Assembly: GCA_947498985.1 (NCBI GenBank)
Contig: CANMMF010000002.1
Location: 62,001-126,000 of the forward strand
Length of the DNA: 64,000 bases
Direction: 5' to 3'
Source: an uncultured Paracoccaceae bacterium
GTDB lineage: Bacteria; Pseudomonadota; Alphaproteobacteria; Rhodobacterales; Rhodobacteraceae
Shown: piece by piece, positions 1,193 to 12,938 of the stretch
Numbering within the stretch: position 1 is the first letter of the stretch
Layout: every line of letters starts with the position of its first letter
Position numbers and translations under genes: made by a program
Notes under the pieces: model-generated
Told to the model about the DNA's origin: nothing
What the model saw: the letters and a program-made list of their open reading frames with translations, nothing else
Database searches by the model: none

Positions 1193-1450
1193 GGTAAGTC
1201 TCCCTGTCTGCCAATGATGTCTAAGAGGTTGAGGCAGGATGTCTGCCAAAAGCCGAAAACGACTTCATTGTCCGCCCATCCCGCTACATCTGACGGTTGC
1301 CACACGGGCAAGGTCTTGTGGCAGGCGGTCAAGGGAAAGGGTTGTGGTTTCTTGCGTCCGAAAGGGGGGTGGGGGTAGATTTCGAAGGACTTCAAAAAAG
1401 GGGGAGGGTTTACTGGTTATTATTATGTTGGTTGAGGCTTTGTGGTTTTC

Positions 1451-1577
1451 GGCCCAAACTTGCCGTTCACCGGCCAGTCAAGATGCTGCGGTCGCAGCCC
1501 GCTTAGCGGCCATTCGCTGCGGTAGGGAAGTATTTGGGTCCGGCACTGGGAAAGGTGCGGGACGTAGCTGCCGTTGG
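1451..1577 (+). repeat. Dispersed intergenic repeat, copy 1 (core 1493-1522)
   Basis: ggcccaaa...gatgctgcggtcgcagcccgcttagcggccattcgctgcgg; shares the core with copies at ~3356, ~4869 and ~8730. Confidence 0.75.
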
Positions 1578-1614
1578 CCGCACAGGCAAGATAAGTCGGA
1601 GGCGAACACCCAGG

Positions 1615-2805
1615 TTACCCGGTCAAGAACTCCGCAAGAGTGCGATTGTAGCGCTCCCAGCATGGACTGCCGTGCAAGGGCACGTGGTTGGTCGTCTCCA
1701 GCACCACCAGTTCGGCGCCCGGAATGCCCACCGCCAACTTCTGCGCCTGCGACAGCGGATGTACGGCGTCATCACGCGCATGCAGGAGCAACACCGGGCA
1801 GCGCACTTGGCCGAGGAGATGCGCGACGGACGCGTGGTTGGTCGCGTCCCGGGTGCGCAGCATCATCTCGGGCGAGGAGGCGGCCTGCGTCATGCGCAGG
1901 ACCTGGCGCGTTTCCTCCACGGGACCTTCGGGAAAGTAGGCCATCGCAAAGGCGCTCGCGAAGGCGCTTTCGGGCCTCGCCCAGCCCTCGGCGATCAGGC
2001 CTCTCAAGGCGTCGGGCGCGACCTCGGCGCCGCGCCGCGACCGTCCCTCGACGAACCCGCCCACGATCGCCAGCCGCGTCAGCCGCTCGGGGTAGAGCGC
2101 CGCGAAGGTCAGCGCGGGAATGCATCCGCCCGAATAGGACACCGCGGCAAAGCGCTCGAAGCCTGCCGCATCGGCGACCGCGGCCGCATCGCGCGCCTCG
2201 GTCTCGAAGTCGACGTCGCGCAGGACACGTCCCGACTGGCCGCTGCCCACGTTGTCGAAGCGCAGGTATCGGGTGTGGAGCGCCATGGGCGAGATCCAGG
2301 AGCGGTGAAGTCCGTAGGCCCATTCCGTTTCCAGGTCCTGGAGGGACGGAGGGCCGAACCGAAGCACGGGCGGGCCCTCGCCGCTGACGGCATAGGCGAT
2401 CGCACTACCATCCTCGCTCAGGCAATAGCGGATCCGCTGGGCCGCTGCGGCCGACGCCGGCGCCGCGACCGCACGCGGGCCGGCCGCCTCATCCGAGACC
2501 TCCGCCACGAGCATCAGCCCCCGCCGCGCCACGGTTCGGATCACCGTCTGCGCCTTGCCGGTGTCGCCCACGGCCTTCCGCGCGGCCGCGATGCACGCGG
2601 AGATCGCGGACTCCGACACGATCCGCCCGCCCCAGACCTCGTCCACCAGCCGGTCGCGCGTCACCAGGTCCCCGGCATTTCGTACCAACAGATGGATCAG
2701 ATCGAATACCTTGGGTTCCACGGCCACCGCGCTGCCGCTGCGCGTCAGCGTCAAGCGGGCGTCATCCAGCGTGCAATCAGCGAAATGGTGCTCCATGTCC
2801 TTCAA
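1615..2805 (-). CDS. N-terminal winged-helix (Trans_reg_C type) DNA-binding domain fused to alpha/beta hydrolase
   Basis: N-terminus VEPKVFDLIHLLVRNAGDLVTRDRLVDEVWGGRIVSESAISACIAAARKAVGD resembles OmpR/CadC-type winged helix; C-terminal half has the nucleophile-elbow-like VSYSGG and the LLLHARDDAVHP and NHVPLHGSP hydrolase motifs. Confidence 0.85.
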   Translation of the reverse strand: MKDMEHHFADCTLDDARLTLTRSGSAVAVEPKVFDLIHLLVRNAGDLVTRDRLVDEVWGGRIVSESAISACIAAARKAVGDTGKAQTVIRTVARRGLMLVAEVSDEAAGPRAVAAPASAAAAQRIRYCLSEDGSAIAYAVSGEGPPVLRFGPPSLQDLETEWAYGLHRSWISPMALHTRYLRFDNVGSGQSGRVLRDVDFETEARDAAAVADAAGFERFAAVSYSGGCIPALTFAALYPERLTRLAIVGGFVEGRSRRGAEVAPDALRGLIAEGWARPESAFASAFAMAYFPEGPVEETRQVLRMTQAASSPEMMLRTRDATNHASVAHLLGQVRCPVLLLHARDDAVHPLSQAQKLAVGIPGAELVVLETTNHVPLHGSPCWERYNRTLAEFLTG

Positions 2806-2950
2806 GTTACGCCACTTTTTCGGCTCTGTCCTACAAGTTTAAGCAGTCCAAACGGTTTCCCAAGGCAATCCCAAGGATTTCCAAGGGTCCACCTCAAGCA
2901 GGGGCGCAAAAGATCAGGCACCGTCGGAGCATCAACCAAGGAGCCACGTC

Positions 2951-3145
2951 ATGATGACCCCGATGCACACCGACCTGATGAAATACAGCGTACCCTCAGC
3001 ACCGACCAAGCATGAGCGCCAAACACTCCGCGCCCGTCGGCAGGCCCGCCGCGCCGCGTTCTCCGCCTTCATCAAAAAGGTCTTATTGCACGTCTCGCGC
3101 TTCTCGGTGGCTCTGAAGCGGCTACGCGTTAACTCGCAGTTCTAA
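2951..3145 (+). CDS. Small basic hypothetical protein
   Basis: 64 codons, aaggag upstream of ATG, divergent from the hydrolase gene; Arg/Lys-rich. Confidence 0.4.
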   Translation: MMTPMHTDLMKYSVPSAPTKHERQTLRARRQARRAAFSAFIKKVLLHVSRFSVALKRLRVNSQF

Positions 3146-3308
3146 TCTCCGCTCTTCGACACTGTGGAGTATAGGCTAAGCTGCGGCAAACGATTTGTGC
3201 CTACCATTCTCAAAGACTACCACGCAACGGATCAATGTCGCGGAAGGGCTCTTCACGGCCATCGGAGCGACCGCAGCATTCCGTGAAAAAACTCGGACCG
3301 TATCGAAG

Positions 3309-3440
3309 AGGACGGCCCAAAGCCGTCCTCCAGCCGTACCTTGCTATGCTGCATCCGCAGCCCGCTTAGCAGTCATTCGCTGTGGGCGCGAAATCAGTCG
3401 CTCATTCGATGACTGCATCGCCGGACAAAACCGACCTTGC
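3309..3440 (+). repeat. Dispersed intergenic repeat, copy 2 (core 3356-3385)
   Basis: ggacggcccaaagccgtcc hairpin followed by cgcagcccgcttagcagtcattcgctgtgg. Confidence 0.75.
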
Positions 3441-3480
3441 AGATGGCAATTCGAACGTCTGCTCGGTCGCAAGCTAAATG

Positions 3481-3951
3481 TCATTGAAGACTTTCAACTA
3501 CCCCCCAGAAGTTTGCCCAAGCCGCTTCCATTTCGCCGGGTATTCCGCTTTCGTCACCCATGACGAACTGTTCAGGCGTCACCCAATCGATGTTTAGCTG
3601 TAAAGCCGCCGCGCACAATTGCTCGACCTGCTGCTCATTCAAATCAGCACCAAGAATGTGCGGTAGGCTTTCCATCCCAGAAGCCATTTGGCTCAGCGTG
3701 GCGACCGCAGGTGTAAGTTCTGCCAGTTCTGCATCTTCAGGAAAAGCAACAACAAGCATCTCAATTTGGGAAAAGTCTCGATCTCTTTTGCCTCCGCAAG
3801 CCCACTTCACCGCCAAAGGCTGAAGCACAAATTCGAACCCAAAAAATACATTCCCGATTGGATGCTGGTTCTGTGCGGTTGCCACTGGCCCAGTCATTGT
3901 GATGCAGAGAACCAGCAGTCCAGTCGACACAAATGATAAGCTTGGATGCAC
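3481..3951 (-). CDS. Hypothetical secreted protein
   Basis: 156 codons with N-terminal signal-peptide-like segment (LSFVSTGLLVLCITMTGPVATAQ). Confidence 0.55.
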   Translation of the reverse strand: MHPSLSFVSTGLLVLCITMTGPVATAQNQHPIGNVFFGFEFVLQPLAVKWACGGKRDRDFSQIEMLVVAFPEDAELAELTPAVATLSQMASGMESLPHILGADLNEQQVEQLCAAALQLNIDWVTPEQFVMGDESGIPGEMEAAWANFWGVVESLQ

Positions 3952-4168
3952 TGCTTCTCCTTAAGGACAATACCGGTTCGGATAGCTCAACCATTGCACC
4001 TCGAAAACCAGATGCCAATCGAGAAAGCTGCCATTCGTGCATAATGCAGAATTTGAAAGTTTGGGCTCCTTGCGGACATCGGATGTGGCGCGCAGCAATC
4101 CTGTGATACGGTCCCTGGTCAACGTCGGGTTGTCGTTGTGGAGGGCATGGCGGATCGGAGGATCAGTC

Positions 4169-4801
4169 ATGGAAACACCAAACCTACCAGCCATTCGGGC
4201 ACTTCGCCCTGCATGGAACAAAGGTCGCATCGTCGGTCAAAAACGACCGCTGAAGCCAAAGCACGTCTGGGCAATCCGTGTTCGCCTTGAATTGGCAGAA
4301 AATCATCGCGACCTCGCGCTGTTCAACATGGCAATCGACAGCAAGCTTCGAGGCTGCGACCTGGTGAAGATGAAAGTTGTCGACGTCATGGCATCTGGCC
4401 AGATCAAAGAACGGGCTTCCGTGTTGCAAAGCAAAACGCAAAAACCGGTGCGCTTTGAGATATCCGAAGGCACAAGAGCCTCGGTCGAGAAGTGGATGGA
4501 GGATGAATTCATGGTCGGCTCAGAGTACCTTTGGCCGGGCCGCTTCCATGAGCGTCTTCATATCTCGACTCGCCAGTACGCGCGGATCGTCCGCGATTGG
4601 GTCACTTCGATCGGATTAGAGGCGAGTGCCTACGGCACGCATTCGATGAGGCGAACAAAGGTAACCCAGATCTACAAGAAGACCGGCAACTTGCGGGCGG
4701 TTCAGCTTCTGCTTGGGCACACCAAGATGGACAGCACAGTCCGGTACTTGGGCGTCGAACTTGAAGACGCGCTAGCAATCGCCGAGGCCATTGAAATCTA
4801 A
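4169..4801 (+). CDS. Short tyrosine recombinase/integrase (catalytic domain only)
   Basis: IDSKLRGCDLVKMKVVDV, HSMRRTKVTQIYKKTGNLRAVQLLLGHTKMDSTVRYLG: R...HxxR...H...Y signature; no room for a long N-terminal core-binding domain. Confidence 0.9.
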   Translation: METPNLPAIRALRPAWNKGRIVGQKRPLKPKHVWAIRVRLELAENHRDLALFNMAIDSKLRGCDLVKMKVVDVMASGQIKERASVLQSKTQKPVRFEISEGTRASVEKWMEDEFMVGSEYLWPGRFHERLHISTRQYARIVRDWVTSIGLEASAYGTHSMRRTKVTQIYKKTGNLRAVQLLLGHTKMDSTVRYLGVELEDALAIAEAIEI

Positions 4802-4823
4802 CAACTTCGGGCCGTCGTCGCTG

Positions 4824-4950
4824 GCGGCCCAATCCGGTCACTCGACCCGAATCCAGATTGCTGCAAACGCAGTCCGCATTCCGGCCATTCGCTGCGGCAG
4901 CGAAATCTGAGCTAGCCCGAACTCACAGATTACGGGACGAAGCGACCGTC
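4824..4950 (+). repeat. Dispersed intergenic repeat, copy 3 (core 4869-4898)
   Basis: cgcagtccgcattccggccattcgctgcgg...gaactcacagattacgggacga, shared with copy 4 (gaactcacacatcgcgggacga). Confidence 0.75.
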
Positions 4951-5103
4951 TCCATCTCGTGGCCGAATGTTTGCTTTTAACAGTTCTATCCAGTGATCCC
5001 CCACCAACAAAGTCAAGAGAACGGCAAGGGGGGGGTGGGTCTTTGTTGCAAATCTGGAGGCGGACAGGTCGAACGCCTAGGGTGTTTTGCACCTCCACTC
5101 AGG

Positions 5104-5598
5104 CTATTGTCCTGGCCTCTCAAAGCCTGCATCGGGCGTATCGTGGCGCAGCCAGACCATACGATCCAGAAACCAAAGCTTGCCGCCGATGATCAGAGTT
5201 AGGCCGGCGACAACGGCCCAAAAGTTGAATTGCCAAAGCCCCCAAACAAGCGGAATCAGTCCCAGTCCGCTTGCAATTGCAATAACGACGGGCATGCGGT
5301 CGTGATGCACCGGGATTTTCCGGTGTTTCCGGCCCAACCAAATACGTTCGCCCACAATCGCCTGTGACATCCAGTTTTCAACTGAATTCGGCGCAGAGAA
5401 CGCGCGAGGATTCCACCATGTCCAAAGCACAACCAGCGACGCAAACAGCAGACTCCACCAACCAATCCAATTGCGGCTCCAAATTGCCAAGGCGAACAGG
5501 ATCGGGATCGCCATGCGACTCCATCCACTCCATTGGTTGGTATGACGGTCCCAAACAGCATCCGACATGCTCATGACCCTCTCAAGTCGATTGCCCAT
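5104..5598 (-). CDS. DUF6653-like membrane protein
   Basis: WDRHTNQWSGWSR..., WWNPRAFSAP..., GERIW pattern and several hydrophobic helices; family assignment from memory. Confidence 0.65.
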   Translation of the reverse strand: MGNRLERVMSMSDAVWDRHTNQWSGWSRMAIPILFALAIWSRNWIGWWSLLFASLVVLWTWWNPRAFSAPNSVENWMSQAIVGERIWLGRKHRKIPVHHDRMPVVIAIASGLGLIPLVWGLWQFNFWAVVAGLTLIIGGKLWFLDRMVWLRHDTPDAGFERPGQ

Positions 5599-5613
5599 GT
5601 GCTTGCCCCGGCC

Positions 5614-6723
5614 CTATGTGCCTATCATCCGGCTTTCCAATGGCCATCTCGGACTAGGACCGGTCGGTGCGGCATATCCGATGCGGGCTAGCATCTGCAC
5701 CGTTTCGCCAGGCTCCGCCAACAACTCATGGACTTGCGTATATAGCGCCGCTTGTTCTTCATACTCTTGCAATGACTGGCTGAGCGGTTGCATCGCCACC
5801 CCTCGGGAGGTCGCCGCAAGGTGCAACCTCACCCACATCCGACCGGCCTCAATCTGATCGCGCCGCGTGTTGCCGGATGTCTTGACTGTAACATACGCGG
5901 ACGTGGCATTCTGTGCCGACCGGAGAAAGTCAACCGCCTGCCTGAACTCTGCGCTTTCAGGGTCGGATTGGCCATCACGCGTGATCCATCCTGCAAGCAT
6001 CATGCCCTCCAGCATTGGTCCGCGAAGAGAAATCCCATCTGGGTTGGCATTGATTTCATGCTTGCCGAATCGCATCAAGTTCATGCTTTCCATATGCGTG
6101 CGGTGCGTGGTCATCTCGGTGTAGGTTGCGTTCCAGGTGAGTGTCCGCAAAGTGTCGACGCGGTCCGGCTCTGTGATAATTTCGGACGCTTCGGGTGCCA
6201 TCGCGAGTAATGCCCCGGTCTCTGGCACACGGGCCTCGTAGGCAAGGCGGTTCGTGTGGCGCGACAACACATTCCTGAACAATGGGTCCGGTATTCCTCC
6301 GCTTACAAGTGCAATATCGGCCACGGGACCGCCCTCGCCTTCAGGAAACAACTCCATCTCTGCCACAAACCCTTGTTCTGCAGCCGCTTGGCGGAAAAGT
6401 TCCAAGAAACACCCCATTCCGATCGTCAATTGCCGGTCGTAAGGATCGGTCTCGGGTAGGTTTCGGTTGGCGTCGCGCCAAATGCGGACACGATCGGTTC
6501 CGATCAGTCCAGCTTGCCATGGCTGCCGGTTGTGGGGGTTCGGTGCAAGGATTGCCCAGCTGAGTGCTGCCATTCTTGGATCGCTATATCCGCCAACACT
6601 CTCCCAAGGGGCCAGGGCCGAATTGGGACGTCTGGTTGCCGCAAAACCTCCTGCAGCAGCAGCGGTGGCGACAATAAATCCACCCCCAATGAGTGCGACA
6701 GTCTTTCTTCTCGAAAGTGTCAT
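5614..6723 (-). CDS. Acg/nitroreductase-like FMN-binding oxidoreductase with Tat-like signal
   Basis: MTLSRRKTVALIGGGFIVATAAAAGG twin-Arg-like N-terminus; LAPNPHNRQPWQAGLIG near the N-terminus as in nitroreductase-fold proteins. Confidence 0.75.
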   Translation of the reverse strand: MTLSRRKTVALIGGGFIVATAAAAGGFAATRRPNSALAPWESVGGYSDPRMAALSWAILAPNPHNRQPWQAGLIGTDRVRIWRDANRNLPETDPYDRQLTIGMGCFLELFRQAAAEQGFVAEMELFPEGEGGPVADIALVSGGIPDPLFRNVLSRHTNRLAYEARVPETGALLAMAPEASEIITEPDRVDTLRTLTWNATYTEMTTHRTHMESMNLMRFGKHEINANPDGISLRGPMLEGMMLAGWITRDGQSDPESAEFRQAVDFLRSAQNATSAYVTVKTSGNTRRDQIEAGRMWVRLHLAATSRGVAMQPLSQSLQEYEEQAALYTQVHELLAEPGETVQMLARIGYAAPTGPSPRWPLESRMIGT

Positions 6724-6736
6724 GAAAGCCTCCTTC

Positions 6737-7345
6737 TCATATGGTTGATGTGCTCTTCTTTGCGCCGATCCTGTCTCGGCGCGCCTCGGACAAGACTACT
6801 GAGATACCCCACAGTCCTGTGCTCATGGGGGCAAGCGCGGTCCACATGCCTGGGAAGTAGTCGTAGCCTCCGCCGTGAAGGATGGCCTCACGCATTGGGA
6901 AGATTAGATAATGCGTCGGCTCGCCCAGAAGCATTCCTACGAAGATGAACGAGGAGATATAGCCCCCCAGCGGGTTGCGCCGGGCAATGGCGTAAGCGCC
7001 GAATATCCAAAGCACGGGGAACGCGTGGCCAATCGTTAAAAGAAACTGTTCGTTGCTCCAATCGCCATTTGTGATCCGCGAGATGCGACCAGCGAAGTCG
7101 AACGCATACTCTTCGATGATGTGAAGCATCAGAAGGGATGCCGTGAACAGGTAGGGCGGCAATAGAAGGTTGGGGTCGGTTGGGTGGCGGAAGCTGGTCA
7201 GCAACCAGAAGACGATGCCAGCACCGAAAGCGCCGAGTCCAATAATGAGAGTTGGCATCACACCGGCGGTGTGAAACAGATGGCCTGAGAAGCCGATCGA
7301 AACAACTGCCGCGATGGCGAAGTATATGATATCGATTATTTTCAT
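6737..7345 (-). CDS. Integral membrane protein with HxxEE motif
   Basis: Multiple hydrophobic segments; LHIIEEYAFDF matches HxxEE, plus conserved-looking GHAFP. Confidence 0.6.
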   Translation of the reverse strand: MKIIDIIYFAIAAVVSIGFSGHLFHTAGVMPTLIIGLGAFGAGIVFWLLTSFRHPTDPNLLLPPYLFTASLLMLHIIEEYAFDFAGRISRITNGDWSNEQFLLTIGHAFPVLWIFGAYAIARRNPLGGYISSFIFVGMLLGEPTHYLIFPMREAILHGGGYDYFPGMWTALAPMSTGLWGISVVLSEARRDRIGAKKSTSTI

Positions 7346-8001
7346 GGTTGCCCCCCCAATTTATTGCGCAACATGAAGCGGAGGCTGATGATGCCTGCGC
7401 AAACGGAAAAAATTCCGGAATACATACCGGGAACCGCACCGGAAGTTTCCGGTGCATTGACCCAAAGCATTACGTTGCACAGGGGAAGGACGATGCTCCA
7501 GATGCTCAAGAGCACCATGGCATAGCCACCTGCTCGGACATGGTAGAATGCCAGGCCGCTCCCGAGGAGCCAGACGAACGTGCCGCCCAGTCCCAGGGAA
7601 ATAGCCAAGCTGAAATCGGTCAGGACGTTGGCGGGTTGGATCAGGCCAGGGAACGTTTGGGTGATGACAATGGCATAGTGAGAGGCAGTCAATTCCGCCC
7701 AGAAAACCAGCATGGCAACAACCAGAAGGATGTGGTTCGGTAACGCGCGACGGGTGACCGGATGATGGTAGCCGATCCGCAACCAAATCATGAACGCACT
7801 GCACATGGCGACGGCTGAAACGCTTCCCAACCAGACGCCAAGATACAAACAGATCGCAACCAACGCTGTAAGCGAGAGGCTCGCCACGGCCGCTGCAGGC
7901 AACCAGACGGGTGGTGCAAACGGGATCGGCCGGTCGTCCAACATACCGTCAAAGGGGAAGGTCACAGAATCAATCCGCACATATAGTTGCATAGTACACA
8001 T
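7342..8001 (-). CDS. Polytopic membrane protein
   Basis: Several TM segments; stop overlaps the start of the downstream gene (ATGA-type overlap at 7342-7345), suggesting one operon. Confidence 0.6.
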   Translation of the reverse strand: MCTMQLYVRIDSVTFPFDGMLDDRPIPFAPPVWLPAAAVASLSLTALVAICLYLGVWLGSVSAVAMCSAFMIWLRIGYHHPVTRRALPNHILLVVAMLVFWAELTASHYAIVITQTFPGLIQPANVLTDFSLAISLGLGGTFVWLLGSGLAFYHVRAGGYAMVLLSIWSIVLPLCNVMLWVNAPETSGAVPGMYSGIFSVCAGIISLRFMLRNKLGGQP

Positions 8002-8044
8002 ATGCTGGGGGAATGGTGGCCGTCAAGGTAGTTGCACTATGCAC
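7987..8044. promoter_or_regulatory. Candidate MarR operator region in divergent promoter
   Basis: TTGCATAGT at 7987-7995 and its inverted near-copy ACTATGCAC at 8036-8044; also GCATA-N7-TATGC (7989-8005) and TGCA-CTA-TGCA palindromes. Confidence 0.4.
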
Positions 8045-8086
8045 GCAATTCCGCCAATGTGCGTGGACTTACAAAAAGGCCTCGGC

Positions 8087-8542
8087 ATGGATTACGAGAG
8101 CGTTCTTATCTACTGGATCAATCTGGTCAGCTTCCAATCCCGCAGGGAACTTTCGCGCCGGTTCGCCGAGGCCGGGGAACAAATCGCCGCAGAGGAGTGG
8201 GCATGCCTGTTGACGCTTTGGAAAAATGGGCCTCTTTCGCCCAGTAAAATTGCTGAAGGCACGGTGCGAGACAGGACAACTTCAACGCGCCTAATCGATC
8301 GGCTGGAAAGAAAAGGTATCGTGAGGCGTGTCAGCGATGAATCAGATAGGCGGCGCGTGATCGTGGAACTTACGGAGAGAGGTGAAAGCCTGCGCGAAAT
8401 CTTGGTGCCGATTGCCAAAAAATACATCGGCGAAGCGACAGGCGATATCGATCCTGAACATCTTCGAATTTCACTGGAGACAGTAAGAAAGATCTCACGG
8501 CGTCTGGACATGTTGGCCAAGAAAACACGAACTTCTGCTTGA
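8087..8542 (+). CDS. MarR family transcriptional regulator
   Basis: LTLWKNGPLSPSKIAEGTVRDRTTSTRLIDRLERKGIVRRVSDESDRRRVIVELTERG: MarR winged-helix and DxRxxxVxLT wing. Confidence 0.93.
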   Translation: MDYESVLIYWINLVSFQSRRELSRRFAEAGEQIAAEEWACLLTLWKNGPLSPSKIAEGTVRDRTTSTRLIDRLERKGIVRRVSDESDRRRVIVELTERGESLREILVPIAKKYIGEATGDIDPEHLRISLETVRKISRRLDMLAKKTRTSA

Positions 8543-8683
8543 TCGATATCGAGCTGCCAGCCGTACAGCGCACATCATCAAGAGCGACCGTTCAAAGATC
8601 GCACAGCGTTGGTCAAAGAGGGCTCTCTGCGGCCCTCGGATGCAGCGCGGCATCGGAATGGTTTGGCGCGCACTGCGGGGCAA

Positions 8684-8812
8684 GGACGGCCCAAAGCCGC
8701 CGTCCGACCAGATGTTCCGATGCCGCAGCCGCAGCCCGCTTTGCGGTCATTCGCTGCAAGCGCAAAACCTGCACGAGGCTGAACTCACACATCGCGGGAC
8801 GACGCTGCTATT
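8684..8812 (+). repeat. Dispersed intergenic repeat, copy 4 (core 8730-8758)
   Basis: gacggcccaaagccgccgtc...cgcagcccgctttgcggtcattcgctgca. Confidence 0.75.
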
Positions 8813-9080
8813 CGCTGTACCACGCACGAAGGTCTGTTTCATCCCGGCATGCTTTGGAAGCGCGGTCGTACATGGATCGGACATGGCATATGTTCATACG
8901 TCGGCACCGGCTCGCTCAGCATCGTCAAAATCATCGCGTTAAACACTCGGCAAACATGCCGACGGGCCAGTTGAACTGGAAGACCACCGATACGAAGGGC
9001 GCGGCGCTGGTGAGCCTCCGCGAGGTGGATCCAAGGCTGGCTTGCCCAAACGGTTCGTTCTAGCGCATCCTGTCTATATC

Positions 9081-10817
9081 ATGACTGACGGTTCTGACAT
9101 CGCTGAACGGCATCTTGAACGCATCCGTACGCTGACGCAGGCAGCGCGCGGTATCTGGTTCACATATCTCAGCGTCCTCGCCTTCATCAGTATCACGCTT
9201 CTTGACCTCGACGATGCCGATTTCTTTGCGCTTGACCGAAACGTCGATCTACCGCTGGTAGGTGTCGCGGTGCCCGTGATCCCATTCCTGTTCTTTGGCG
9301 CGGCGCTTGTGACAATGACCTATGCTTATATGCACGTTACGCTGGAGCAGCTATGGGCAGCGTTGGGTCAGGCGCCAACACAAATTGACGGCGAGCCGCT
9401 GACGAACCACACGCCGCCTTGGTTGGTGCTCGGCGCAGCGCTTTTTGTGCGTCGACGGCTCCGCCGCGATGAACCTTCGCCCGCGGAGCAAGGAAAACTG
9501 GGCGTATTGGGAATGATGACTTCCTTCCTGCTCCTATTTCTTGCCGGGCCCGCTCTTGTCTGGGGGCTTTGGCTTCGCTCGCAAACTGTACATCTGGCCT
9601 GGCTCACCATCGCTGTGGGGGTGTTTGCGCTTGGGTGTCTTGTGATCGGTTGGATGAGCCTTGCGTCCATGCACGGCCAGCTGGGTGGCCGACCGCAGCG
9701 ACGCCGCCGGGTCTTGCAGATGGTCATATTTGCGGTGGCGACCTGCCTCACGCTCGCGGTGTCGATGACACGGACACAGTGGGATCCGTTGGGGCCGTCA
9801 GTTACCCGGCATCCCGATGACCCGGCCTTTATGCAGCGGGTCGGGAACTGGTTTCGACCTGCCGTGGCGGATTTGACGGGTGTGCGGCTGACAACAATGA
9901 CGCCGGCATGGCGACCCCACGACGAGGCGCTCAGAACGTTCCGGCGGGACTGGTGCGCCGACGTGTCCAATCCCGGTTGCCTTGAGCAAGGCCTGGAGAA
10001 CGGAGAGCTCAACGGAGCCTTCGACGCCGCGCGCACGCGTGAGATCGCGACAATGACGAAGCCCGATCTAAGCGGACGGAATATGGATCACGCCAACCTT
10101 TCCGCGGCGTTCCTGCCCGGAGTGATGCTGAACGGCACGCACCTTCACCGCGCGGACATGCACAGCGCGCAAATGGAGGGAGTCCGGGCCAGGGAGGCTG
10201 ATATGACAGCGTCGGTCTTGATCAACGCACGCCTTGACACGGCCGACATGCGTCGTTCGACACTCGTCGGTGCGGCGGCCCACGATATGACGGCCGTTAA
10301 TGCTAATTTCGTCTCAGCCGACCTGCGCCTTGCAAACCTAACCAACGCGGATTTTCGCCACACCATTTTGAGTCACGTCGATTTTTCCGGCGCAAATCTG
10401 GACCAGACCCGCTTCGACGGGGCGATCCTGGTTCGGGCTCGTTTCGCCTACACCCAACTTCGCGGAACGGCACTCGACCGCGCCGACCTCAGTGGCGCGG
10501 ACTTCTCGCAATCGCGGCTCGATTTCGCGCGGTTCTCGGACGTCAAGCTGACCTCGGCAAAGTTTGTCGACGCAATCGTGGGCTGGACCTACATCGAAGG
10601 CCGCGCCGACCGGCCGGTCGGGCGGGTCGACTTTGCCGGCGCGGCGCTGCTTGGTGTGACTTTCCGCAATCTCGATCTGTCGCAGGCTACCTTTGAAGGG
10701 TCGGAACAACTAAACCAGACGTTCGCCGATGGCAGCGTCCTCGTGCCAGACGGCATAGCGCGACCCTGCCATTGGTCGGACGAGGTCTTGACCGAGTTAG
10801 AGTATCAGCGCCATTGA
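9081..10817 (+). CDS. Membrane-anchored pentapeptide-repeat protein
   Basis: N-terminal half has several TM segments; C-terminal half has A(D/N)LxxAxF-type repeats (NLSAAFLPGVMLNGTHLHRADM, ADLRLANLTNADFRHTILSHVDFSGANLDQTRF, DRADLSGADFSQSRLDFARF). Confidence 0.88.
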   Translation: MTDGSDIAERHLERIRTLTQAARGIWFTYLSVLAFISITLLDLDDADFFALDRNVDLPLVGVAVPVIPFLFFGAALVTMTYAYMHVTLEQLWAALGQAPTQIDGEPLTNHTPPWLVLGAALFVRRRLRRDEPSPAEQGKLGVLGMMTSFLLLFLAGPALVWGLWLRSQTVHLAWLTIAVGVFALGCLVIGWMSLASMHGQLGGRPQRRRRVLQMVIFAVATCLTLAVSMTRTQWDPLGPSVTRHPDDPAFMQRVGNWFRPAVADLTGVRLTTMTPAWRPHDEALRTFRRDWCADVSNPGCLEQGLENGELNGAFDAARTREIATMTKPDLSGRNMDHANLSAAFLPGVMLNGTHLHRADMHSAQMEGVRAREADMTASVLINARLDTADMRRSTLVGAAAHDMTAVNANFVSADLRLANLTNADFRHTILSHVDFSGANLDQTRFDGAILVRARFAYTQLRGTALDRADLSGADFSQSRLDFARFSDVKLTSAKFVDAIVGWTYIEGRADRPVGRVDFAGAALLGVTFRNLDLSQATFEGSEQLNQTFADGSVLVPDGIARPCHWSDEVLTELEYQRH

Positions 10818-11252
10818 CGAGGCGTCTTCGACGCGATGCCCTACACACCATCATGGAGTGCCGTCGTTCCCGAAGCATTTTTGAACGTCATTCCCGAGCC
10901 GCTCCCCAGCGATTGTATCATTCATCCTTTCGATGACGAGGCGTGGCGAACAGATGAGCGCGCATTTTTTGAGCGGCGGCAGGTCAAACTGGACGAAATA
11001 TCGGAAGCACTAAGATAGGGGCCGGGTGAGCAGTCCGGTAGCGCAGTATTCGAATGCCGCCTTTCATCCGAGCCGCAGCATCGGTGACATTGGGCTCAGA
11101 GCTGTCATTTACCGCATCATGCTGCGGCGCAGAAAGCGCATAAGCCCTTTTATGCCAAACTGCCAGTAACGATACGAACCCCACTTTCGTATCTGGTCAC
11201 GTCTCATTCGCAGCCAACGAACCCGACCTGACACCCGCCAAACCCCAGCTTC

Positions 11253-12938
11253 CTACCCCAGCAACCGTCGCGCAATAACCTGGGCCTGGATCTCGGCGGC
11301 GCCTTCGAAGATGTTCAGGATCCGGGCGTCGCAGAGGATGCGGCTGACCTTGTATTCCAGCGCAAAGCCGTTGCCGCCGTGGATCTGCAACGCGTTGTCC
11401 GCCGCCGCCCAGGCCACACGCGCACCGAGCAGCTTGGCCATGCCGGCCTCCAGATCGCAGCGCCGGCCGGCGTCTTTCTCGCGGGCGGAGAAATAGGTGA
11501 GCTGGCGGGCCACCATGATCTCCACCGCCATCATCGCGAGCTTGCCGGAGACGCGTGGGAAGTTCACCAGCGCCTTGCCGAACTGCTTGCGGTCATGGGC
11601 GTATTGCATGCCCACATCGAGCGCCGATTGCGCCACGCCGATGGCGCGGGCGGCGGTCTGGATGCGGGCGCTCTCGAAGGTCTCCATGAGCTGCTTGAAG
11701 CCGCGGCCCTCCTCGCCGCCCAGCAGGTTCTCGCCCTTGACCCTGAAGTCGTCGAAATTGACCGTGTATTCCTTCATGCCGCGATAGCCCAGCACCTCGA
11801 TCTCGCCGCCCGAAATGCCTTCATCCTGCCAGGGGGCCTCATCCGTGCCGGGCGTCTTTTCGGCCAGAAACATGCTCAGGCCCTTGTAATTGTCGGTGTC
11901 GGGCACCGTGCGCGCCAGCACCGTCATCACATGGGTGCGCGCGGCATGGGTGATCCAGGTCTTGTTGCCGTTGAGGATCCAGTCGCCATTGTCGTCCCTG
12001 ACGCCCCTGGTGCGCAAGGCGCCCAGATCGGAGCCGGTATTGGGCTCGGTAAAGACCGCGGTCGGCAGGATCTCCCCGGACGCGAGACCCGGAAGCCACT
12101 TTTCCTTTTGCGCGTCGGTGCCGCCCGCGATGATCAGCTCGGCGGCGATCTCGGAGCGCGTGCCAAGAGAGCCCACGCCGATATAGCCGCGGCTCAGCTC
12201 TTCGGAGACGACACACATCGACGCCTTGGACAGGCCAAAGCCGCCATGTTCCTCGGGGATCGTCAGGCCGAAGACGCCCATCTCCGCCAGATCCTCGATG
12301 ACCTGCATCGGGATCAGCTCGTCCTTGAGGTGCCAGTCATGGGCGTAGGGCTCGACCTTTTCGACGGCGTAGCGGCGGAACTGCTCGCGGATCATCTCAA
12401 GCTCGTCATCGAGCCCGGTCCGCCCGACGGTGATCTCGGCGGAGCGTTCGTCCATCAGCGCCACAAGTCTCGTGCGCGCATCCTGGCTGTTACCGCCTTG
12501 CGTCAGCGTCATGATCTCGGGCGCCATCAGCGCGCGCATGTCGTCCTGGGAAAGACCCATGTCCTGCAGGCGGACAATCTCGCCCTGGTTCATCAGGATG
12601 CCGCCATAGATCTGCCAGAGGTACTCGCCGAAGGCGATCTGGTGCAGCAGCTGCTCGACCTCGCCGAAATCGCCCTCCGCCTGCAGCCGCTCCGCCCATC
12701 CCTGGATCTGGCGCAGCGATTCGAGATAGGTGGCGAACCAGGCGAGCCCGTGGGCCGCGGTCTGATGCGTCTCGAGCGCGCCTGCCGACACGCGCCCGTC
12801 GACGCTGACCATCTCGCGCACCGAAGCGCGGGCTTTCTCGAACACCTCGGCCACCGGGGCAATCGCCGCGCCGGTCAGGCTCAGAAGGTCCGGCAGGATC
12901 GCACTGCGCAGGTTCAGGTCTTGTCCATCATGGGGCAT
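11253..12938 (-). CDS. mcd: Acyl-CoA dehydrogenase family, probable (2S)-methylsuccinyl-CoA dehydrogenase
   Basis: ACAD motifs (FTEPNTGSDLGALRT, YAHDRKQFGKAL, QIHGGNGFALEYKVSRILCDARI) preceded by a ~150-residue N-terminal extension characteristic of Mcd of the ethylmalonyl-CoA pathway. Confidence 0.75.
   Translation of the reverse strand: MPHDGQDLNLRSAILPDLLSLTGAAIAPVAEVFEKARASVREMVSVDGRVSAGALETHQTAAHGLAWFATYLESLRQIQGWAERLQAEGDFGEVEQLLHQIAFGEYLWQIYGGILMNQGEIVRLQDMGLSQDDMRALMAPEIMTLTQGGNSQDARTRLVALMDERSAEITVGRTGLDDELEMIREQFRRYAVEKVEPYAHDWHLKDELIPMQVIEDLAEMGVFGLTIPEEHGGFGLSKASMCVVSEELSRGYIGVGSLGTRSEIAAELIIAGGTDAQKEKWLPGLASGEILPTAVFTEPNTGSDLGALRTRGVRDDNGDWILNGNKTWITHAARTHVMTVLARTVPDTDNYKGLSMFLAEKTPGTDEAPWQDEGISGGEIEVLGYRGMKEYTVNFDDFRVKGENLLGGEEGRGFKQLMETFESARIQTAARAIGVAQSALDVGMQYAHDRKQFGKALVNFPRVSGKLAMMAVEIMVARQLTYFSAREKDAGRRCDLEAGMAKLLGARVAWAAADNALQIHGGNGFALEYKVSRILCDARILNIFEGAAEIQAQVIARRLLG

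Follow-up and report, generated by a model that had tools for sequence, protein, structure and literature searches.

Among described systems, chromosomal integron arrays (IntI integrase, attC sites) have co-oriented sites of ∼110-130 bp separating exchangeable genes, a sharp boundary of recombination at which a short core is shared, a tyrosine recombinase, and gene 3' ends that abut the site. IS1111/IS110 relatives insert in attC. In the Xer-dependent dif modules (pdif) of Acinetobacter plasmids, gene modules are flanked by short sites whose core is 6 bp and are moved by simple tyrosine recombinases. In ICE/CIME accretion, modules lie between direct-repeat att sites and most of them have no integrase. 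Simple tyrosine recombinases (Xer, FimB/E-type) are small PF00589 enzymes with a complete catalytic set. Here we describe a repeat family of Roseobacteraceae that resembles each of these systems in the features just listed, including an IS110-family element inserted in a site. It was encountered in a 64,000-nt stretch of DNA (the window) from an uncultured Paracoccaceae bacterium. We propose that these repeats serve site-specific recombination in a cassette-array system whose modules would be exchanged by crossover in the hexamer CGGCCC, the recombinase and the circular forms being inferred; judged from sequence comparison, this reading is probable but by no means secure.

The family ranked top in a repeat search of the window, with four copies, all on the + strand (extents 1440-1604, 3303-3467, 4815-4979, and 8677-8842) and all opening with CGGCCC (Table 1). 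The pattern CGGCCCWNWSCNGNCNTYC matched four places in the 64 kb, all + and all in these copies, with 0.4 matches expected, and a sequence-only profile model built from 60 copies (R1) scored the four at 81.7-105 bits. A first-pass annotation made from the letters alone had claimed four same-orientation intergenic copies of a ∼125-bp repeat and no equally good copy elsewhere in the window; both statements held up. The repeat itself is real, but its length was revised: the best-conserved unit spans ∼113 bp (CGGCCC...GCGGGAC) and is followed by a weaker tail (AAAGCTGCCATTCG...CGAATGTCTGCTTT).

Table 1. Coordinates of repeat units, module-A sequences and genes of the array in the window
Feature	Position	Strand	Support or domains
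Unit 1, without module A; core CGGCCC 1450-1455, GCGGGAC 1557-1563	1450..1563; tail to ∼1604	+	Repeat search, profile, pattern
Winged-helix + alpha/beta-hydrolase protein, between units 1 and 2	1615..2796	-	PF00486, PF00561
Module A of copy 2 (GGGCTC...GCAGCATT), then 32-bp unconserved spacer	3246..3280	+	Profile match
Unit 2, core CGGCCC 3313-3318 to GGAC	3313..3426; tail to ∼3467	+	Repeat search, profile, pattern
Integrase module, left end: AAAGCTGCCATTCG 4024-4037; module A GGGCTC 4063 to GCAGCAATC 4099	4024..4099	+	
Simple tyrosine recombinase, 210 aa	4169..4801	+	PF00589
Palindrome GGGCCGTC-GTCGCT-GGCGGCCC 3' of integrase stop; CGGCCC core within right arm	4809..4830	+	
Unit 3, core CGGCCC 4825-4830 to GGGAC; right-end motif CGAATGTTTGCTTT 4964-4977	4825..4938	+	
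Module between units 3 and 4: DUF6653, nitroreductase-like, two ORFs without Pfam match (-); MarR regulator (+)	5104..8542		
Module A of copy 4, then 32-bp unconserved spacer	8620..8654	+	Profile match, 51.6 bits
Unit 4, core CGGCCC 8687-8692 to GCGGGAC	8687..8800; tail to ∼8842	+	Repeat search, profile, pattern
Degenerate partial module-A copy, adjoins right edge of variable region	∼11041..11110	+	A-profile

Five pairs of near-identical units in different contexts delimit the element: identity was ∼0.95 from position 1 to ∼113 and near background on either side, and ordinary unit-to-unit likeness is ∼60%. One motif, GGCCC or an equivalent followed by AGC-nGnC-nTTCG, is repeated inside the unit. 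Only some copies have an upstream module A (GGGCTC...GCAGCATC), with CGGCCC typically 33-34 bp further on across an unconserved spacer; the window copies at 3313 and 8687 have module A 32-34 bp ahead of CGGCCC, and copy 1 lacks it. In window copy 3, and in about eight other places, this spacer is replaced by the gene of the 210-aa recombinase. Many copies have no module A; in these, CGGCCC directly follows the 3' end of an unrelated gene. The divergent copy that had been suspected at ∼11030-11160 is a partial match only, a module-A half in degenerate form that scores 16 bits with the A-profile (11042-11098) and is recognisable by GCAGCATCGGTGACATTGGGCTCAGAGCTGTCATT. G-rich runs were seen near units 1 and 3 (1360-1420 and 5015-5045).

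Units often lie between convergent genes or just 3' of a stop codon, as would suit a cis-regulatory or terminator element at gene 3' ends with no role in mobility. RNAalifold, however, found no conserved base pair over 60 copies, folding energies were ordinary on both strands (mean z ∼ -0.3) with end pairing equal to the control, and there was no Rfam match anywhere in the window. A conserved RNA or attC-like fold was ruled out on these grounds, and the hairpin of the GACGGC-ccaaa-GCCGTC type noted earlier in two copies is not a general property of the family. The precise module-exchange junctions described below also contradict the regulatory explanation, to which we give very little credence.

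R1 gave 34 matches in the source genome (E below 0.01). They were concentrated on contigs C2 (the window contig), C7, C8, C19, and C20, so that the even genome-wide spread that the first-pass annotation would have taken as refutation was not observed. The exact core pattern was found in 40 stretches among named genomes, nearly all Rhodobacterales; the sole exception is a record titled Woeseia MAG (L059) with two units, which is probably a mis-binned contig. Repeat matches were present in 57 of 101 sampled Roseobacteraceae genomes and in none of eight genomes from other families of Alphaproteobacteria; the unit is a family-wide repeat of Roseobacteraceae. The consensus had no match in any phage record, and a phage origin was rejected. 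We found neither the repeat nor such arrays described in the open-access literature.

Among the matches listed, compiled by hand, neighbouring units less than 10 kb apart were on the same strand in 43 cases and on opposite strands in 4 (p = 3e-9), which meets the expectation for an integron that co-oriented sites alternate with genes. On C19, a 51-kb contig, all R1 matches listed were on +. Neighbours more than 50 kb apart in the same hand-compiled set were 13 same and 12 opposite, and on the complete 4.19-Mb chromosome of G064 unit direction switches between islands; co-orientation therefore belongs to the array and not to the replichore. A replication-strand bias is argued against by the same 13:12 ratio. 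One rare oppositely oriented pair, at G000:C7 1559-2674, flanks a second integrase copy and may mark an inversion between two units. Co-oriented direct repeats, an integrase gene that directly abuts the site, and the absence of integrase from most modules are also what CIME-like tandem accretion at an att site would produce, the integrase making direct-repeat att sites with integrase-less remnants left between them. Unlike ICE/CIME arrays, those of Roseobacteraceae form several islands in each genome, with dozens of sites altogether and with modules of one to a few genes (mostly 0.4-5 kb) and no single target gene; neither a fixed tRNA nor a fixed target gene was seen for the sites. We regard accretion as highly unlikely.

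The modules between units are common to different genera or duplicated inside one genome. A two-gene module of 1729 bp shared by G064 and G052 (96.6% identity) was read base by base: it starts at the GCGGAC that closes one unit and extends to GGGCTCG in module A of the following site, the units preceding it are different alleles in the two genomes, and beyond it one genome has an integrase region and the other a 33-bp spacer. A duplication inside G064 (808 bp, 95.5%) runs from CGGCCC of one unit to CGGCCC of the next, and a small-gene module common to G064 and contig C19 of the source genome (369 bp, 88.9%) ends at CGGCCC. A 1.7-kb module found twice on C7 and once in G052 (88-92%) has three different, unrelated left flanks and is homologous from position 0/1. 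Modules can also be long multigene operons in either orientation, in contrast to the cassettes of integrons, which counts against our proposal. The cassette-like layout suggested earlier is borne out by this traffic across genera with breakpoints at the unit edge and by the clustering and local co-orientation of the units.

Where both loci have a unit, breakpoints were placed by a change-point method that took the usual likeness between units into account. In four comparisons, drawn from two groups of loci, the right-hand homology began at unit position 0/1, and in three the left-hand homology stopped at position 6, so that both partners share exactly CGGCCC. Such a footprint is what a crossover inside a 6-bp overlap should leave, and it agrees with the fixed-core breakpoints of integrons, with the caveat that few independent events are available: apart from integrase copies, only about six independent breakpoints could be resolved, and the three comparisons of C7 and G052 depend on one another. 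Some shared modules break elsewhere (M1, M4, -36, or mid-unit). Homologous recombination between dispersed repeats, shuffling flanking genes without a dedicated enzyme, could draw on numerous units that are ∼60% alike and would explain those breakpoints that fall inside units. Yet breakpoints pile up at 0/1 and 6 and are not spread over 113 bp, and on the side that is not shared the units differ as ordinary diverged alleles do, beginning with the first base past the core; we consider this explanation quite unlikely. The idea of a dispersed Rhodobacteraceae repeat without a mobility role, left open by the first-pass annotation, is supported as to dispersal and opposed by the exchange breakpoints as to the lack of mobility.

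The candidate enzyme is the simple tyrosine recombinase of window copy 3. Its catalytic residues R61, K89, H158, R161, H184, and Y193 are invariant in 22 homologues (mean column identity 81%). It differs from other simple tyrosine recombinases in its length of 210 aa, with only a short N-terminal region. The nearest solved sequences are XerD and XerA, but the protein falls far below the NCBIfam cut-offs for Xer, IntI, and tyrosine-type DNA invertase. No integron integrase in the source genome exceeded the TIGR02249 cut-off (265 bits; genome best 86 bits, array-linked integrase 23 bits). The AlphaFold model was poor (pLDDT 69, pTM 0.47), and matches to XerA, XerH, and Cre (15-17 Å rmsd) were therefore left unused. 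The source genome has three full-length copies of the gene, each with the CGGCCC of a same-orientation unit within ∼25 bp 3'. The window and C7 copies are 98% identical on the left side up to the core and dissimilar on the right. The recombinase gene itself travels as one of the modules, and this module ends at CGGCCC. Of the close homologues read, nearly all have the palindrome GGGCCGNC-n6-GnCGGCCC, or one much like it, directly 3' of the stop codon; relatives at ∼67-70% identity have another palindrome there. Units were present in 29 of 33 integrase-positive genomes and in 28 of 68 without a strong integrase match, the latter counting against the proposal. The relation between integrase and units is an association, not proof, and the assignment of the enzyme is an inference and the weakest step of the proposal. 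Other recombinases could act, e.g., XerC/D, the serine resolvase at 647-1192, or other integrases.

Imperfect 14-bp terminal inverted repeats flank the integrase unit, which raises the possibility of a mobile-element family in which this unit (AAAGCTGCCATTCG...CGAATGTTTGCTTT, ∼954 bp) is IS-like, copies with module A and a 33-bp spacer are MITE-like non-autonomous derivatives, and the neighbouring genes are passive. Both ends are common to versions with and without integrase, and near-identical 113-bp units occur in different contexts, as such a family would predict. Independent insertions, however, should be randomly oriented, and strong local co-orientation was found; copies that lack module A are numerous and open directly with CGGCCC behind a foreign gene; exchange involves entire gene modules and breaks at the core; and visual inspection of one integrase element showed no target-site duplication. 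On balance we judge it unlikely, though it retains some force.

In the cassette-array reading that we prefer, the site would be duplex DNA of ∼113-160 bp made of repeats of one motif, i.e., M1 (GGGCTC..), M2 (CGGCCC..), M3, and M4 (GCGGGAC..), each followed by AGC-nGnC-nTTCG. Modules between successive co-oriented sites would be excised and inserted by crossover in the 6-bp core CGGCCC at the left site edge, the equivalent M1 and M4 cores being used less often. Strand exchange is attributed, by inference, to the 210-aa recombinase, and modules may move as circles, also by inference since no circular form or excision was observed. The sites, their local co-orientation, the shared modules, and the breakpoints at the core are direct observations. 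Unlike attC, the Roseobacteraceae sites are conserved in sequence, and they have neither the attC fold nor the GTTRRRY core nor IntI; copies of the recombinase are scattered in the arrays and travel as modules, modules may be multigene and face either way, and no single attI/Pc platform was seen, although no dedicated search was made. The array behaves like an integron but failed the tests for IntI and for a folded attC, and we classed it as an integron-like variant; there is a substantial chance that it is independent of integrons. Dif modules and CIME accretion are similar too, but their defining features are not matched. The pdif sites differ in being 28 bp long, with AT-rich Xer arms and often inverse orientation; the XerD-arm consensus had one 2-mismatch match in the window (30599; 1.4 expected) and none at the units.

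More tentatively, and as a proposition we would rate somewhat short of an even chance, conserved duplex CGGCCC sites and a minimal 210-aa recombinase that is itself a mobile cassette may constitute a second, independent gene-capture platform, an integron analogue that is widespread in Roseobacteraceae. Roseobacters have highly variable accessory genomes. If the proposal is true, a large part of this variation could be broken down into separate cassettes whose limits are known and which pass between genera; the movement of cassettes through a dominant group of marine bacteria would become directly countable; and a compact tyrosine recombinase, together with its candidate core site, would be available to test. 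Integron finders, which seek IntI and folded attC, would be expected to miss such a system. Rhizobia, Pseudomonas, and enterobacteria also have relatives of the recombinase, and these might serve parallel systems with other cores. Relatives at 46-63% identity were found on plasmids of E. coli, Klebsiella, Pseudomonas, Pantoea, Agrobacterium, Sinorhizobium, and others (L222-L227, L230-L237). In most of the plasmid relatives from enterobacteria, Pseudomonas, and rhizobia, the stop codon is immediately followed by a strong hairpin that differs in sequence and could equally be a terminator.

Synteny with five relatives breaks off at the 3' end of an acyl-CoA-dehydrogenase-type gene (11253-11258), and nothing to the left is common with them at that locus; the array region is therefore accessory. 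The degenerate module-A half adjoins this edge. The right flanking gene is conserved in the five relatives and the left flanking gene has no match in a same-genus genome, so that the empty site cannot be reconstructed. A pentapeptide-repeat protein with a long domain lies between unit 4 and the island edge (9081-10817). The small serine resolvase (PF00239) just left of unit 1 could be an alternative recombinase or belong to a different mobile element. The IS91/ISCR Y2 transposase domain (PF04986) was found only at C7 268 kb and C8 276 kb and not on C2 or C19; IS91-type mobilisation was rejected as the transposase is not array-linked, only the C8 copy lying near a unit. An IS110-family element lies within the B part of a source-genome unit (L019:5523-6997), and this IS end recurs at the corresponding unit position in another genus, Yoonia (L051, around 708), as if the repeat were a preferred target of this element.
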